NCBI GenBank assembly: GCA_029778935.1 | Contig: JAKPBM010000206.1 | Location: forward strand, 1 to 6,414 | DNA: 6,414 nucleotides | Direction: 5' to 3' | Origin: Bacillota bacterium | GTDB lineage: Bacteria > Bacillota > Clostridia > Oscillospirales > QAMX01 | Shown here: positions 197-6,413 of the stretch, piece by piece | Layout of the letters: each line of letters opens with the position of its first letter | Position numbering within the stretch: position 1 is the first letter of the stretch | Program-made: the position numbers and the translations under genes | The notes under the pieces: generated by a model | The model's database searches: none | What the model was told of the DNA's origin: nothing | What the model saw: only the letters and a program-made list of their open reading frames with translations

Positions 197-217
197 CACC
201 GCTATGCGCGTACTCTG

Positions 218-249
218 CGCCGCTGCCGCCTGGCGGCAGCGGCGTTTTT
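218..249 (+). terminator. Rho-independent terminator after ahpC
   Basis: A perfect 10-bp GC-rich stem (arms CGCCGCTGCC at 218-227 and GGCAGCGGCG at 235-244) with a 7-base loop is followed directly by five T. It begins 22 bases after the ahpC stop and ends 42 bases before the next start codon. I see no convincing promoter between it and the reductase gene, so it may be partly read through and lower reductase expression relative to ahpC. That role is inference. Confidence 0.88.
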
Positions 250-291
250 CACGAAAGTTTTGTCTACTGACGATATTTTTGAGGTGATATC

Positions 292-1983
292 ATGGCGGAT
301 ACCATTTATGATCTGATTATCCTTGGCGGCGGCTGCGCGGGCCTTTCCGCCGGTATATATGCCGGACGCGCCAAGCTGAAAACCTTGATTATTGATAAAG
401 CCAACCCCGGCGGACAGATTGCCAACACGGCAGACGTGGTGAACTACCCCGGCATCCGCCGCATCAGCGGGCCGAACCTGGTCAAAGAAATGCATAAGCA
501 CGCTTTGGACTTCAAGGTGAAGTTCGCCACCGCCAGCATCGAGCGGGTGGAGCTGGACGGCGACGTAAAGAAGCTCTATTCGCCCGAAGGCACCTTTCAG
601 GCCCGGTCGCTGATTATCGCCACGGGCGCTTCGCCCCGCCGCATCGGCTTTCCCGGCGAAAAAGAATTTACGGGCAGAGGCATTGCCTACTGCGCCACCT
701 GCGACGGCGAGTTCTTTACCGGTTTGGACATTTTCGTCATCGGCGGCGGCTTTGCGGCGGCGGAAGAAGCGGTGTATCTGACCCGCTTTGGCAGCTCCGT
801 CACCATCGTGGTCCGCGAGCCGGACTTTACCTGCGCGAAAACAGTGGCCGACCAGGCTAGAAATCACCCGAAAATCAAGGTCATCTACAACACCGAAGTG
901 GAGCGGGTGGAAGGCGACGACCTCATGCGCAAAGCCGTGTTTAAAAACAACGTGACAGGCGAGACTTTTACCTATGAAGCCGGCGAGAAGGGCACCTTCG
1001 GCATGTTCATCTTCGCCGGTTACGAGCCGGCCACAAGCATGTTCAAAGGCCTCGTCGATATGGATGACTACGGCTATATCATAACCGACGACGCCATGCG
1101 CACCAGCGTTCCCGGCGTCTTTGCGGCGGGCGACCTGCGGCCGAAGATCTTACGCCAAATCGTAACCGCCGTGTCCGACGGCGCTATTGCCGCCACCTCG
1201 GCCGAGCGCTACGTAGCGCAGCTCAAAGAGCGGCTGGGTATCCCCATGTACGAGGAGGACGAACCGGAGCAAACAACCCCCGCCCCTGCGGCGGAAAGCC
1301 AGCCCGCCGCCCCCGCGCCGGCAAAGCCCGCCCAAACGGCCGACGGCCAGTTTATCAACTCGGTCATGCGGGAACAGCTTACGGCGATTTTCGCTAAGCT
1401 TACAAAAGACGTAACCCTTCTGACCGTGGTGGACCCGGCCAACCCCAAATCGGCGGAAATGCTTGCCTTCTTGCAGGAAATCGAGCCGCTAAGCCCCAGA
1501 ATTCACTTGAAAACCCTGCAAAAAGGCCAGGATCCGGCCATGGAGCAGAAAATCCATCTCGAACGCTTCCCCAACGTGGCCCTTTTGGACGACGCGGGCG
1601 AATACACCGGCGTGACCTTCAGCGGCATTCCCGGCGGGCATGAAATTAACTCCTTTGTGTTGGCCCTCTACCACTACAGCGCTGACGACAAGCTCACGCC
1701 CGAGCAGGTCAAGCGGATACAGTCCATCCAGAAGCCCATTCACATGGCCGTATGCGTGTCGCTTACGTGCCATCTCTGCCCGGACGTGGTCAGCGCCTCC
1801 CAGTCTATCGCGCTGAAAAACCCGCTGGTTCGCGCGGAAATGATCGATTTGGGCCTGTTCCCCGAGCTGCGGCAGAAGCATAAGGTGATGAGCGTGCCGG
1901 TCATTCTCATCAACGACGGGGAGAAGGTCGTGTTCGGCTCCAAGACCCTGGACCAGATTCTGGATACGCTCCTGGCTCTGTAA
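292..1983 (+). CDS. AhpF-like FAD disulfide reductase with permuted domains (TrxR core, then double thioredoxin-fold module)
   Basis: This is a 563-residue flavoprotein expected to pass electrons from NAD(P)H to AhpC. Residues 1-315 are a thioredoxin-reductase core: FAD-binding GGGCAG at 12-17, redox pair CATC with C134 and C137, nucleotide-binding GGGFAAAEEA at 151-160, and the FAD motif GVFAAGD at 275-281. Residues 321-350 are an acidic then Pro/Ala-rich linker. From about 355 on, the protein matches the N-terminal module of AhpF: a first fold without CxxC (MREQLTAIFAKLTKDV, FSGIPGGHE with E451) and a second fold with LTCHLCPDVV (C493, C496) and a cis-Pro at 536. Canonical AhpF (about 521 residues) has this module in front of the core; here it is behind. 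The HRRxxxR NADPH motif of thioredoxin reductase is replaced by VREPDFT (174-180), suggesting NADH use (inference). The ATG follows GAGGTGAT at 281-288. It could also be annotated trxB or FAD-dependent oxidoreductase, so I give no symbol. Confidence 0.93.
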   Translation: MADTIYDLIILGGGCAGLSAGIYAGRAKLKTLIIDKANPGGQIANTADVVNYPGIRRISGPNLVKEMHKHALDFKVKFATASIERVELDGDVKKLYSPEGTFQARSLIIATGASPRRIGFPGEKEFTGRGIAYCATCDGEFFTGLDIFVIGGGFAAAEEAVYLTRFGSSVTIVVREPDFTCAKTVADQARNHPKIKVIYNTEVERVEGDDLMRKAVFKNNVTGETFTYEAGEKGTFGMFIFAGYEPATSMFKGLVDMDDYGYIITDDAMRTSVPGVFAAGDLRPKILRQIVTAVSDGAIAATSAERYVAQLKERLGIPMYEEDEPEQTTPAPAAESQPAAPAPAKPAQTADGQFINSVMREQLTAIFAKLTKDVTLLTVVDPANPKSAEMLAFLQEIEPLSPRIHLKTLQKGQDPAMEQKIHLERFPNVALLDDAGEYTGVTFSGIPGGHEINSFVLALYHYSADDKLTPEQVKRIQSIQKPIHMAVCVSLTCHLCPDVVSASQSIALKNPLVRAEMIDLGLFPELRQKHKVMSVPVILINDGEKVVFGSKTLDQILDTLLAL

Positions 1984-1994
1984 CAGAAGATATG

Positions 1995-2025
1995 AAAAGA
2001 CCCTGCTTAAGCAGGGTCTTTTTTT
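1995..2025 (+). terminator. Rho-independent terminator after the AhpF-like gene
   Basis: Arms AAAAGACCCTGC (1995-2006) and GCAGGGTCTTTT (2011-2022) pair perfectly around a TTAA loop, and the T-run extends to 2025. It starts 12 bases after the stop codon. The A-run on the left arm means it could also stop transcripts coming from the right. Confidence 0.93.
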
Positions 2026-2373
2026 GATGCTTGGCGGCGGAATGCCAAAAGCGAATAGGAAAGGAGCGGCAAGCCGAAGCTGCCCGGCGGGGGGTATATC
2101 ATACCACGCAGCTAAAATGCGGCGTATATGAGACGGATAGAGAACCGGTAGCGGCGGGAAAGCGTGTTTCTAACAGAGTAAGCGCAAAGGTTTCGTATTG
2201 TATCCACTGGAAACCGGCAAAGAAGGCGCGGCCAGGCTGGTTGTGCCAAATTTTTTATAAAATGGACTAAAGAAATCCGAATTACCGCCCTTAGGATATA
2301 TACATTGCCGGCCCGGGAAGGGTGGCGGAAAATCATAAAAATTTTGTCGGAAACCGAATTCTTATGCAAAGGC
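2026..2373. other. Intergenic stretch without a recognisable gene
   Basis: This is the left part of the 488-base gap between the AhpF-like gene and the solute-binding protein gene. Composition shifts from GC-rich (about 2030-2250) to AT-rich (from about 2250 on). The open frames here have no family resemblance and no well-placed ribosome binding site. I see only short dyads that could be chance: GGTAT/ATACC at 2093-2105 and TTTTATAAAA at 2253-2262. No RNA family or mobile-element end is recognisable. Confidence 0.6.
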
Positions 2374-2389
2374 ACTAAAATGTTTTAGT
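2374..2389. promoter_or_regulatory. Inverted repeat, candidate operator upstream of the solute-binding protein promoter
   Basis: ACTAAAA and TTTTAGT form perfect 7-bp arms around a TG centre. The A-rich half followed by a T-rich half around a short centre resembles LacI-family operators such as those of ribose and other sugar repressors, although those usually have CG at the centre. Its centre lies 51 bp, about five helical turns, from the palindrome over the -10 region. The regulator is unknown. Confidence 0.5.
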
Positions 2390-2412
2390 AGAATTTTAAA
2401 TACTGTAACAAA

Positions 2413-2441
2413 TTGACAATTAACTATTAACATGTTAATAT
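2413..2441 (+). promoter_or_regulatory. Sigma-A promoter of the solute-binding protein gene
   Basis: A perfect -35 TTGACA (2413-2418), a 17-bp spacer and a -10 TAATAT (2436-2441, four of six matches) sit in AT-rich DNA just before the gene. Transcription would start near 2448, giving a leader of about 25 bases before the TTG start, which leaves no room for a riboswitch. An 11-bp dyad, AATTG-A-CAATT (2411-2421), covers the -35 box. Confidence 0.78.
2425..2440. promoter_or_regulatory. Perfect 16-bp palindrome over spacer and -10, candidate repressor operator
   Basis: TATTAACA followed by TGTTAATA is a perfect palindrome without a spacer. It overlaps the end of the promoter spacer and all but one base of the -10, the classical place for a repressor to block RNA polymerase. 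A further TTAAC half-site lies at 2420-2424, in direct orientation to TTAAC at 2427-2431. The sequence is not one I can assign to a named regulator. Confidence 0.65.
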
Positions 2442-2455
2442 AAAAGCAAACCAAG

Positions 2456-2466
2456 AAGGAAGGTGA
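2456..2466 (+). promoter_or_regulatory. Ribosome binding site that selects the TTG start at 2472
   Basis: The run AAGGAAGGTGA ends in AGGTGA (2461-2466), a full match to the 3' half of the extended Shine-Dalgarno sequence, five bases before TTG at 2472. The alternative GTG at 2463 lies inside this run and only two bases after AAGGA, too close to be used efficiently. Confidence 0.75.
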
Positions 2467-2471
2467 GGAAG

Positions 2472-3842
2472 TTGAAGAAATCCTGGCGTACTTTGGCACT
2501 GCTCCTGGTTGCCTGCATGTGCGTTGCCTTGCTGGCCGGATGCAAGGGCGGGGACAAGCCGGCGGAAACTACCCGTGAGCTGAAAACTTTCGGCGGCAGA
2601 ACCTTCACCATCGCATCCAGCTGGGCCAGCGGCATCTGGCGGGCGTTCCCCGAGGAATCCGCCCAGATGGAAGAAAAACAGGCAATCTATGACCAGCTGG
2701 AAAAAGACCTGGACATCAAAATCGAGATCCTGGACGGCGCCCATGACGCGCAAGGCGTGATTCCTTCCCTGATGGCAGGCGATATCCCTTCCGATGTGGT
2801 AGATTTTAAGATTCACGGCTGGATGCCTCTGGCCGTACAGGGGCTGATCCTGCCCTATGACGACCCGCGGCTTGTCGAAGGCGGGCTGAACGTAAACGAC
2901 CCCAATGTGTTCTTCCAGCCCTTCCCCTTCACCCAGGCGCAGAACTGGAACGGTAAAATCTACGGCGCCATGTGGGGCGGCAAGCACTTTGTTCCCGAGT
3001 TCGGCTGGTGCATCTACTTCAACAAACAGCTGGTGGCCGACGCGGGTGTTACCGACCTGTACCAAGTGGTGCGGGACGGCAAGTGGGACTGGAACTTCTT
3101 CCGCGAACTGGCGTTAAAGTGCACCAAAGACTATGACGCCGACGGCAAAATCGACGTCTATGGCGTCGGCACCTTCGGCTACGGCTCCGAAATCTTCACC
3201 AACCCCGGCTCGGCAATTATCCGCAACGAAGACGGCAAGATGAAAGTGGTCTTAAGCGAGCCGGGCGCGCTGGATGCGCTGGAGTTTACGCGGCAGTTTG
3301 CCGTGCTGGACAAAGTGCGCCACCCTGACGGCTACGGCGACGTGCACAGGCAGTTTACCGACGGCAAAGTGGCCATGGTCTGGGGCGAGCAGTGGAATAC
3401 CCACGGCGACGGCATGCAGTTTAGAACGACCGAAGTAGACTACGGTCTGGTGCCTATGCCCAAGGCCCCCGGCGAGGACCACTATGTCAACGTGCTGGGC
3501 GGCGTACACAGCGTCTCCATCTACGCAGGCCACTCCGACGAAGACCTTAAGGCCATCGCCTACATCTTCTCCGAAATGGGCAGACGGTTTACGGACAACG
3601 AATGGCAGGAGTATTATCTGGAAAACGACCTGCGCGGCGACCGGGAAGCCCTGGAAATGGTGATGGATTACATCTGGCCCCACACGGTGACCGACTATGT
3701 CTGGTGTAGCGTGCCGATACTGGAATTCTTCCGCAACAACATCTATCTGCCCATGACGGAAGGGCAGGGCACGGCGGTGCAGCTGGTGGATAAGTACCAG
3801 GCCGAACTCCAGGTCATGGTGGATGAACTGTTCCGTCAATAA
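2472..3842 (+). CDS. Lipoprotein solute-binding protein of an ABC importer (family 1, probable carbohydrate)
   Basis: This is an extracellular substrate-capturing lipoprotein of 456 residues. With the TTG start it begins MKKSW, giving a basic N-terminus, a hydrophobic core (LALLLVACMCVALL) and the lipobox LAGC with the lipid-modified Cys at residue 24. A Gly/Lys/Asp linker follows, then a mature domain of the usual length for family 1 binding proteins. Family-like signs are the SLMAGDIPSDVV segment, NGKIYGAMWGG, WCIYFNKQL, a calcium-loop-like D220-x-D-x-D-G-x-I-D228 followed by VYG, GKVAMVWGEQW and DYGLVPMPKAPG with a GGVHSVSIYAG strand. Many aromatic residues suggest a sugar or other carbohydrate ligand, but the ligand cannot be read from sequence. 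No permease or ATPase gene adjoins it: a terminator lies upstream and a convergent ribokinase downstream. It appears monocistronic, driven by the promoter at 2413-2441 and probably repressed through the overlapping palindrome. Confidence 0.9.
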   Translation: MKKSWRTLALLLVACMCVALLAGCKGGDKPAETTRELKTFGGRTFTIASSWASGIWRAFPEESAQMEEKQAIYDQLEKDLDIKIEILDGAHDAQGVIPSLMAGDIPSDVVDFKIHGWMPLAVQGLILPYDDPRLVEGGLNVNDPNVFFQPFPFTQAQNWNGKIYGAMWGGKHFVPEFGWCIYFNKQLVADAGVTDLYQVVRDGKWDWNFFRELALKCTKDYDADGKIDVYGVGTFGYGSEIFTNPGSAIIRNEDGKMKVVLSEPGALDALEFTRQFAVLDKVRHPDGYGDVHRQFTDGKVAMVWGEQWNTHGDGMQFRTTEVDYGLVPMPKAPGEDHYVNVLGGVHSVSIYAGHSDEDLKAIAYIFSEMGRRFTDNEWQEYYLENDLRGDREALEMVMDYIWPHTVTDYVWCSVPILEFFRNNIYLPMTEGQGTAVQLVDKYQAELQVMVDELFRQ

Positions 3843-5832: not shown

Positions 5833-5875
5833 AAAAAGCAAAGAAACATCGGCCGGAATCTCCCGGCCGATGTTT
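5833..5875 (-). terminator. Terminator of the V-type ATPase operon
   Basis: A perfect 13-bp stem (5863-5875 with 5844-5856) closes on a six-base loop. On the minus strand it is followed by the T-rich tail TTTCTTTGCTTTTT, reaching 5833. The ATPase stop codon (5876-5874) overlaps the first two bases of the stem. Confidence 0.9.
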
Positions 5876-6413
5876 ACTTTTCGGATTGCTCCGCTTTCTT
5901 CACTTTGTACCGCTTGATGCTTTTCAGACGGACAAAATCCTCCCGGTCTTTGTCTTCCAGCGCCTCGCTGATGCGCTGGATTTCCGCCGTTAAGCGCGGG
6001 ATTACGATGTTTTTTAAAGCGTTGGCCCGCTTCTGGGCGGCTTTGATGGCTAAAGCCAGGCGGTAGACGCTGTTTTCCACTTCCGCTAAATCGGCGATGA
6101 ACTCTTTTACCTTGTTGAAGCGGAAATACGCTTCGTCCAGCGCCGAGTTGGTGCCTCTGACGCCGTAATAGAGCTTTAGCGGCGGCGGGTTGGTCTTCAC
6201 GATGGGCAGCTCCACGCCCATGACCGTGCGGAACCGAAGCTGCAGCCCCTCGTCCAAAGGCACCGTCTGGGACGCCTGCTCGGCGATTCCCAGCGTGATG
6301 TGGGCGGTCTGCAGCGCCTCGTAGGCGGAGCGGAAGGTTTCGTCGATGCTGTTTTGCAGCGAGGCGGCTTTGTCAATCAGCCCCATCATCTCGCGGATGA
6401 GGATGTTGCGCTT
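5874..6413 (-). CDS. ntpD: V/A-type ATP synthase subunit D, C-terminal part (5' end outside window)
   Basis: This is the central-shaft subunit of a V/A-type ATPase, which couples ATP turnover in the catalytic head to ion transport (H+ or Na+) in the membrane ring. The 179 visible residues run off the right edge, continuing upstream in frame as KRNILIRE before MMGLIDK, so the internal ATG at 6389 is not the start. Subunit D is usually about 205-215 residues, so roughly 25-35 are missing. Visible signs are the long N-terminal helix (LIDKAASLQNSIDETFRSAYEALQTAH), the variable middle segment, and the long C-terminal helix with RANALKNIVIP followed by LEDKDREDFVRLKSIKR, a hallmark of the family. 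The basic tail is short. As the gene ends at a strong terminator, it is the last gene of its operon; subunits A and B would be expected just upstream, beyond the window. Confidence 0.94.
   Translation of the reverse strand, partial: KRNILIREMMGLIDKAASLQNSIDETFRSAYEALQTAHITLGIAEQASQTVPLDEGLQLRFRTVMGVELPIVKTNPPPLKLYYGVRGTNSALDEAYFRFNKVKEFIADLAEVENSVYRLALAIKAAQKRANALKNIVIPRLTAEIQRISEALEDKDREDFVRLKSIKRYKVKKAEQSEK

Follow-up and report, generated by a model that had tools for sequence, protein, structure and literature searches.

The window (the whole stretch of DNA analyzed, 6,414 nt of a contig from a Bacillota bacterium) opens inside the 3′ end of ahpC, which is followed on the same strand by a gene that joins a thioredoxin reductase (TrxR) core to a module of the AhpF N-terminal type (Table 1). 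The C-terminal 64 residues of AhpC are present, with a stop codon at 194-196 and 61% identity to residues 124-187 of Escherichia coli AhpC. The AhpC match ends at position 193 and the fusion gene starts at 292, in agreement with the sequence-only reading that placed the fusion gene directly after ahpC. The assembly of this genome consists of 465 contigs and is 85.8% complete, and the 5′ part of an ahpC gene, covering model positions 2-115, is found at one end of a different contig (C52). The gene was probably split by an assembly gap between C52 and the window contig.

The hairpin that separates ahpC from the fusion gene was not listed by a pattern scan, and an Rfam search of the window returned nothing at the gathering score. 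We infer that this hairpin might serve as a partial attenuator, allowing an excess of ahpC over its reductase. Downstream of the fusion gene, the window encodes an extracellular solute-binding protein (PF01547; 2463-3842), and in one relative (L006) the open reading frame after the fusion (1965-3338) is similar to it in length and start. On the minus strand lie genes for a ribokinase (TIGR02152; 3917-4930), a separate thioredoxin/glutaredoxin-like protein of 88 aa that carries a CPHC motif (PF13192; 5437-5703), roughly 3.5 kb from the fusion gene, and subunit D of a V-type ATP synthase (5874-6413), which is cut by the contig end.

Table 1. Features at the ahpC-fusion gene locus (positions in the window)
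Feature	Position	Strand	Basis
ahpC 3′ end (2-Cys peroxiredoxin), cut by contig edge	2..196	+	AhpC model 124-187; PF10417
Terminator-like hairpin and U run between ahpC and fusion gene	217..250	+	13-bp stem, -28.7 kcal/mol, z -3.75
Probable ribosome-binding site GAGGTG, 5 nt 5′ of ATG	281..286	+	Read from sequence
Fusion gene, 563 aa, TrxR core, linker and AhpF-type module	292..1983	+	TIGR03143 profile match
TrxR/FAD core, residues 1-312	292..1227	+	TIGR01292, PF07992, PDB TrxRs
Core redox motif CATC, C134/C137	691..702	+	Sequence; Cys in 139/139 rows
Cys181, pyridine-nucleotide domain	832..834	+	Cys in 138/139 family rows
Linker, Ala/Pro/Glu-rich, residues 313-354	1228..1353	+	Composition; low pLDDT at 325-349
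AhpF N-terminal-type tandem thioredoxin-fold module, residues 355-563	1354..1980	+	
Module redox motif CHLC, C493/C496	1768..1779	+	Sequence; Cys in 139/139 rows
Terminator-like hairpin 3′ of fusion gene	1994..2030	+	13-bp stem followed by U run, z -5.14

Architecture of the fusion gene

The fusion gene starts with ATG and runs as a single open frame. The profile of classic AhpF (TIGR03140) matches it twice and in swapped order, with model positions 211-510 at 301-1209 and positions 2-199 at 1354-1983. BLAST alignments gave the same picture: residues 6-312 match residues 213-519 of E. coli AhpF (31% identity; E = 2e-42), and residues 354-557 match residues 1-192 (33% identity; E = 2e-23). In the profile search, residues 6-308 also passed the cut-off of the TrxB family (TIGR01292) by a narrow margin (343.8 bits against 343.45). 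Both parts named in the sequence-only reading, a TrxR core and an AhpF N-terminal-type module at residues 355-563, were thus recovered, with the module placed after the core and not before it. Within the module, the motif LTKDV begins at residue 370, FSGIPGGHE at residue 443, and CHLC at residue 493, and both redox pairs are found at the residues given earlier. The tether, previously put at 30 residues, was about right; the linker comprises 42 residues, including nine alanines and eight prolines.

An AlphaFold2 model of the protein, built from a 34-row alignment (mean pLDDT, 79.3; pTM, 0.64), allows no inference about docking of the module. The pLDDT falls below 50 at residues 38-52, 325-349, and 491-495, the second stretch lying within the linker and the last corresponding to the module CxxC. 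The best 50 Foldseek matches covered the TrxR core throughout, with no module match among them, and a module match is present in the VIA structure comparison list.

A domain order of this kind could in principle be produced by an assembly or frame error that merges two genes, a possibility raised together with the original observation, and the window is indeed one contig of a genome fragmented into 465. However, the frame is unbroken, full-length homologues (534-565 aa) occur at 19 other fetched loci, and another record carries a full-length protein that is 83% identical. We therefore discard an artefact as the explanation with near certainty.

Family membership and distribution

Against the NCBIfam family TIGR03143, the fusion protein scores 788.7 bits over profile positions 2-553 of 555 (cut-off, 687.65), making it a full-length member. 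This family (AhpF_homolog, "putative alkyl hydroperoxide reductase F subunit") has the same length and the same domain order, a TrxR core followed by an AhpF-type module, and its gene presumably adjoins ahpC, as does that of the window protein. The window protein differs from it in nothing substantial and adds one more sequence to TIGR03143. Scores for two other families stay below their cut-offs, with 327 bits over two stretches for classic AhpF (cut-off, 502.9) and 141.9 bits for the protein disulfide oxidoreductases (PDOs) of TIGR02187 (cut-off, 185); the first half of the module has no CxxC in the fusion protein. Classic AhpF, as in E. coli and Salmonella (PDB 1hyu and 4o5q), consists of the same two modules with the same CxxC pair, and its gene in E. 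coli likewise adjoins ahpC, but its module is N-terminal to the core.

The same module is known from Enterococcus faecalis AhpF (PDB 5h29 and 6il7), and because these entries are numbered 353-560, the module is C-terminal there, too. The protein of E. faecalis V583 has a cysteine at position 503 (6il7 is titled as the C503A mutant), whereas the window protein has Ser503 and Cys488. Across the family alignment, cysteine is found at position 503 in 19 of 139 rows and at position 488 in 30 rows. Both structures are linked, we presume, to Toh et al. (2017, BBA 1861:3201). A literature search for the family identifier "TIGR03143" found no paper, and the name "EfAhpF" was absent among the matches listed. 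In a 2025 review (PMC12288474), AhpF of Fusobacterium nucleatum (FN1984) is described with the module at the C terminus, as in the window protein but in a different organism, and with its gene beside ahpC. A body sentence of that review swaps the two ends relative to the figure legend; two Fusobacterium loci among those fetched (L009 and L010) have the domain order of the window protein, matching the legend. The swapped architecture is not new: it is catalogued (TIGR03143), partly solved (5h29 and 6il7), and described in print (PMC12288474). What looks like an odd domain order is a catalogued, putative way of recharging AhpC, seen here in Bacillota and Fusobacteriota.

We surveyed the phylum for both types of reductase. 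At an E value of ≤1e-60, TIGR03143 matched in 340 of 398 sampled genomes, nearly all of the matches listed being the TrxR core alone. Full-length matches were present in at least 9 of the 398 genomes, the own genome included, and 6 of these 9 exceeded the cut-off; three candidates per genome were scored, which makes nine a lower bound. Classic AhpF occurs in 14 of the same 398 genomes, and the two lists share no genome, which, with about 0.3 shared genomes expected by chance, permits no statement on exclusion. The own genome has no TIGR03140 match above the cut-off, which fits the earlier proposal that the fusion protein replaces AhpF, as far as an assembly of this completeness can tell. Two of its contigs (C367 and C349) carry fragments of one or two additional TrxRs, which could also serve AhpC.

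Beyond the sampled genomes, a protein search yielded at least 7,890 proteins at an E value of ≤1e-60, the best 120 listed being 551 to 587 aa long. Named genome records supplied 46 loci, of which 11 contain the full fusion, in Clostridium, another Clostridiales bacterium, Fusobacterium, Coprobacillaceae, Erysipelotrichaceae, and Agrilactobacillus; the fusion at locus L015 scores slightly below the TIGR03143 cut-off (686.3 bits). Plasmid records contained 4 matches among 72,556 at an E value of ≤1e-100 (45-49% identical). No viral relatives were found in IMG/VR with six peptide patterns of the fusion protein, a search that detects close relatives only. A complete ahpC lies directly upstream on the same strand in 18 of the 19 full-length relatives examined (match ends 0-189 nt apart), and the association noted in the window recurs with the same domain order. 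In the nineteenth (L006), the contig ends 80 nt upstream of the fusion; L062 and L063 among the relatives are near duplicates.

Origin of the swapped domain order

We compared 69 cores (20 swapped, 15 AhpF, and 34 TrxR) in a phylogenetic tree. The swapped cores fall into a single clade with a lone Fusobacterium TrxR, L016 (support, 100/100), and this clade groups with five Bacillota TrxRs (94/93) on the TrxB side of the tree; the AhpF cores form a separate clade (100/100). Forcing the swapped and AhpF cores together cost 32.75 log units and was rejected (AU test, P = 0.0006). Without seven long-branch rows, the same constraint was rejected more weakly (cost, 12.30; P = 0.0157), and the swapped cores grouped with five TrxR rows that include L016, with support of 99/95. 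Two points bear on how these values are read: L016 joined the AU-tested group after the tree was seen, and for both core trees the tree program flags a convergence of long branches on the AhpF clade. Scored alone, the core reaches 345.9 bits with the TrxR model (TIGR01292) versus 206.3 bits with the AhpF model.

In a module tree without an outgroup, the swapped, AhpF, and PDO modules fall into three separate groups. The split only unites the PDO rows and lends no support to a sister relationship of the swapped and AhpF modules. The first CxxC of the module is absent in all swapped (20/20) and AhpF (15/15) rows and present in 17 of 20 PDO rows. Conversely, all 35 swapped and AhpF rows contain GHE, which occurs in a single one of the 20 PDO rows.

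These shared features, together with the AhpF type of the module itself, would suit a history in which an existing AhpF had its module transferred from one end to the other while its core stayed an AhpF core. The core tree, both AU tests, and the score of the core against the two models argue against such a history, and we consider it improbable. The description of the protein as an AhpF with its domains reversed accordingly holds for the order of the parts, whereas the notion of an AhpF with moved parts is probably wrong, the core grouping with TrxB. Since the swapped cores group with TrxB and their union with AhpF in one clade is rejected, the most likely origin of the family is the attachment of an AhpF-type module to the C terminus of a TrxB, independently of classic AhpF. 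On balance, and with some reserve, we extend this TrxB-derived origin to a broader proposal: AhpC reductases may have originated two or more times by the addition of one type of tandem thioredoxin module, N-terminally in one TrxR lineage (AhpF) and C-terminally in another (this family), with the absence of the HRR motif (see below) as a convergent switch to NADH and with Cys181 possibly tuning the relay. That AhpF may have formed twice is already proposed in the review (PMC12288474); the core-tree test of the double origin and the Cys181 observation are new here.

The lone Fusobacterium TrxR inside the fusion clade (L016:2998-3948, 317 aa) scores 530.1 bits with the core part of TIGR03143. No module or AhpC-like open reading frame of ≥70 aa is apparent among those listed for its locus. 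This TrxR may have lost its module or may be a relic of the unfused ancestor.

Predicted electron relay to AhpC

All four CxxC cysteines are conserved in every row of the family alignment (139/139). Cys181 is nearly as constant in the family, and its equivalent is a cysteine in 10 of 34 TrxR rows and in none of the 15 AhpF rows. In TrxB, which has no module, the HRR motif binds the phosphate of NADPH. This motif is kept in 18 of the 34 TrxR rows and is absent from all 20 swapped cores, that of the window protein included, as well as from all 15 AhpF cores. Judged from the motif, its absence would fit the use of NADH by the swapped cores; 16 of the 34 TrxR rows also lack it.

By analogy with classic AhpF, NADH would reduce the FAD of the core, and FAD would in turn reduce C134/C137. 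The C-terminal module, swinging on its flexible linker, would then take up the electrons on C493/C496 and hand them to the disulfide of AhpC, the peroxide-removing enzyme. We regard it as very probable that the fusion protein is a TIGR03143 member that recharges AhpC through this putative relay, in a family derived from TrxB by the C-terminal joining of an AhpF-type module. A comparable division of labor is found in Clostridium pasteurianum, where a TrxR-like protein and a small redox protein (Cp34 and Cp9) feed AhpC without being fused. A TrxB-type core carrying a PDO-like module (TIGR02187, below the cut-off as given above) could alternatively act as a general dithiol reductase with several targets, not dedicated to AhpC. 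The recurrence of ahpC immediately upstream, in 18 of the 19 relatives examined, speaks against this broader role, which we judge unlikely. As dedicated AhpC reductases, the two types of opposite domain order would lend themselves to a clean comparison of electron transfer in its dependence on linker and module position.

Among the TrxR rows, a group of 11 carries HDEG in place of HRR together with a 2-residue insertion. One of these proteins (L066:1222-2427, minus strand; 402 aa) extends about 90 residues beyond the core, a stretch with no NCBIfam match at an E value of 1e-30.
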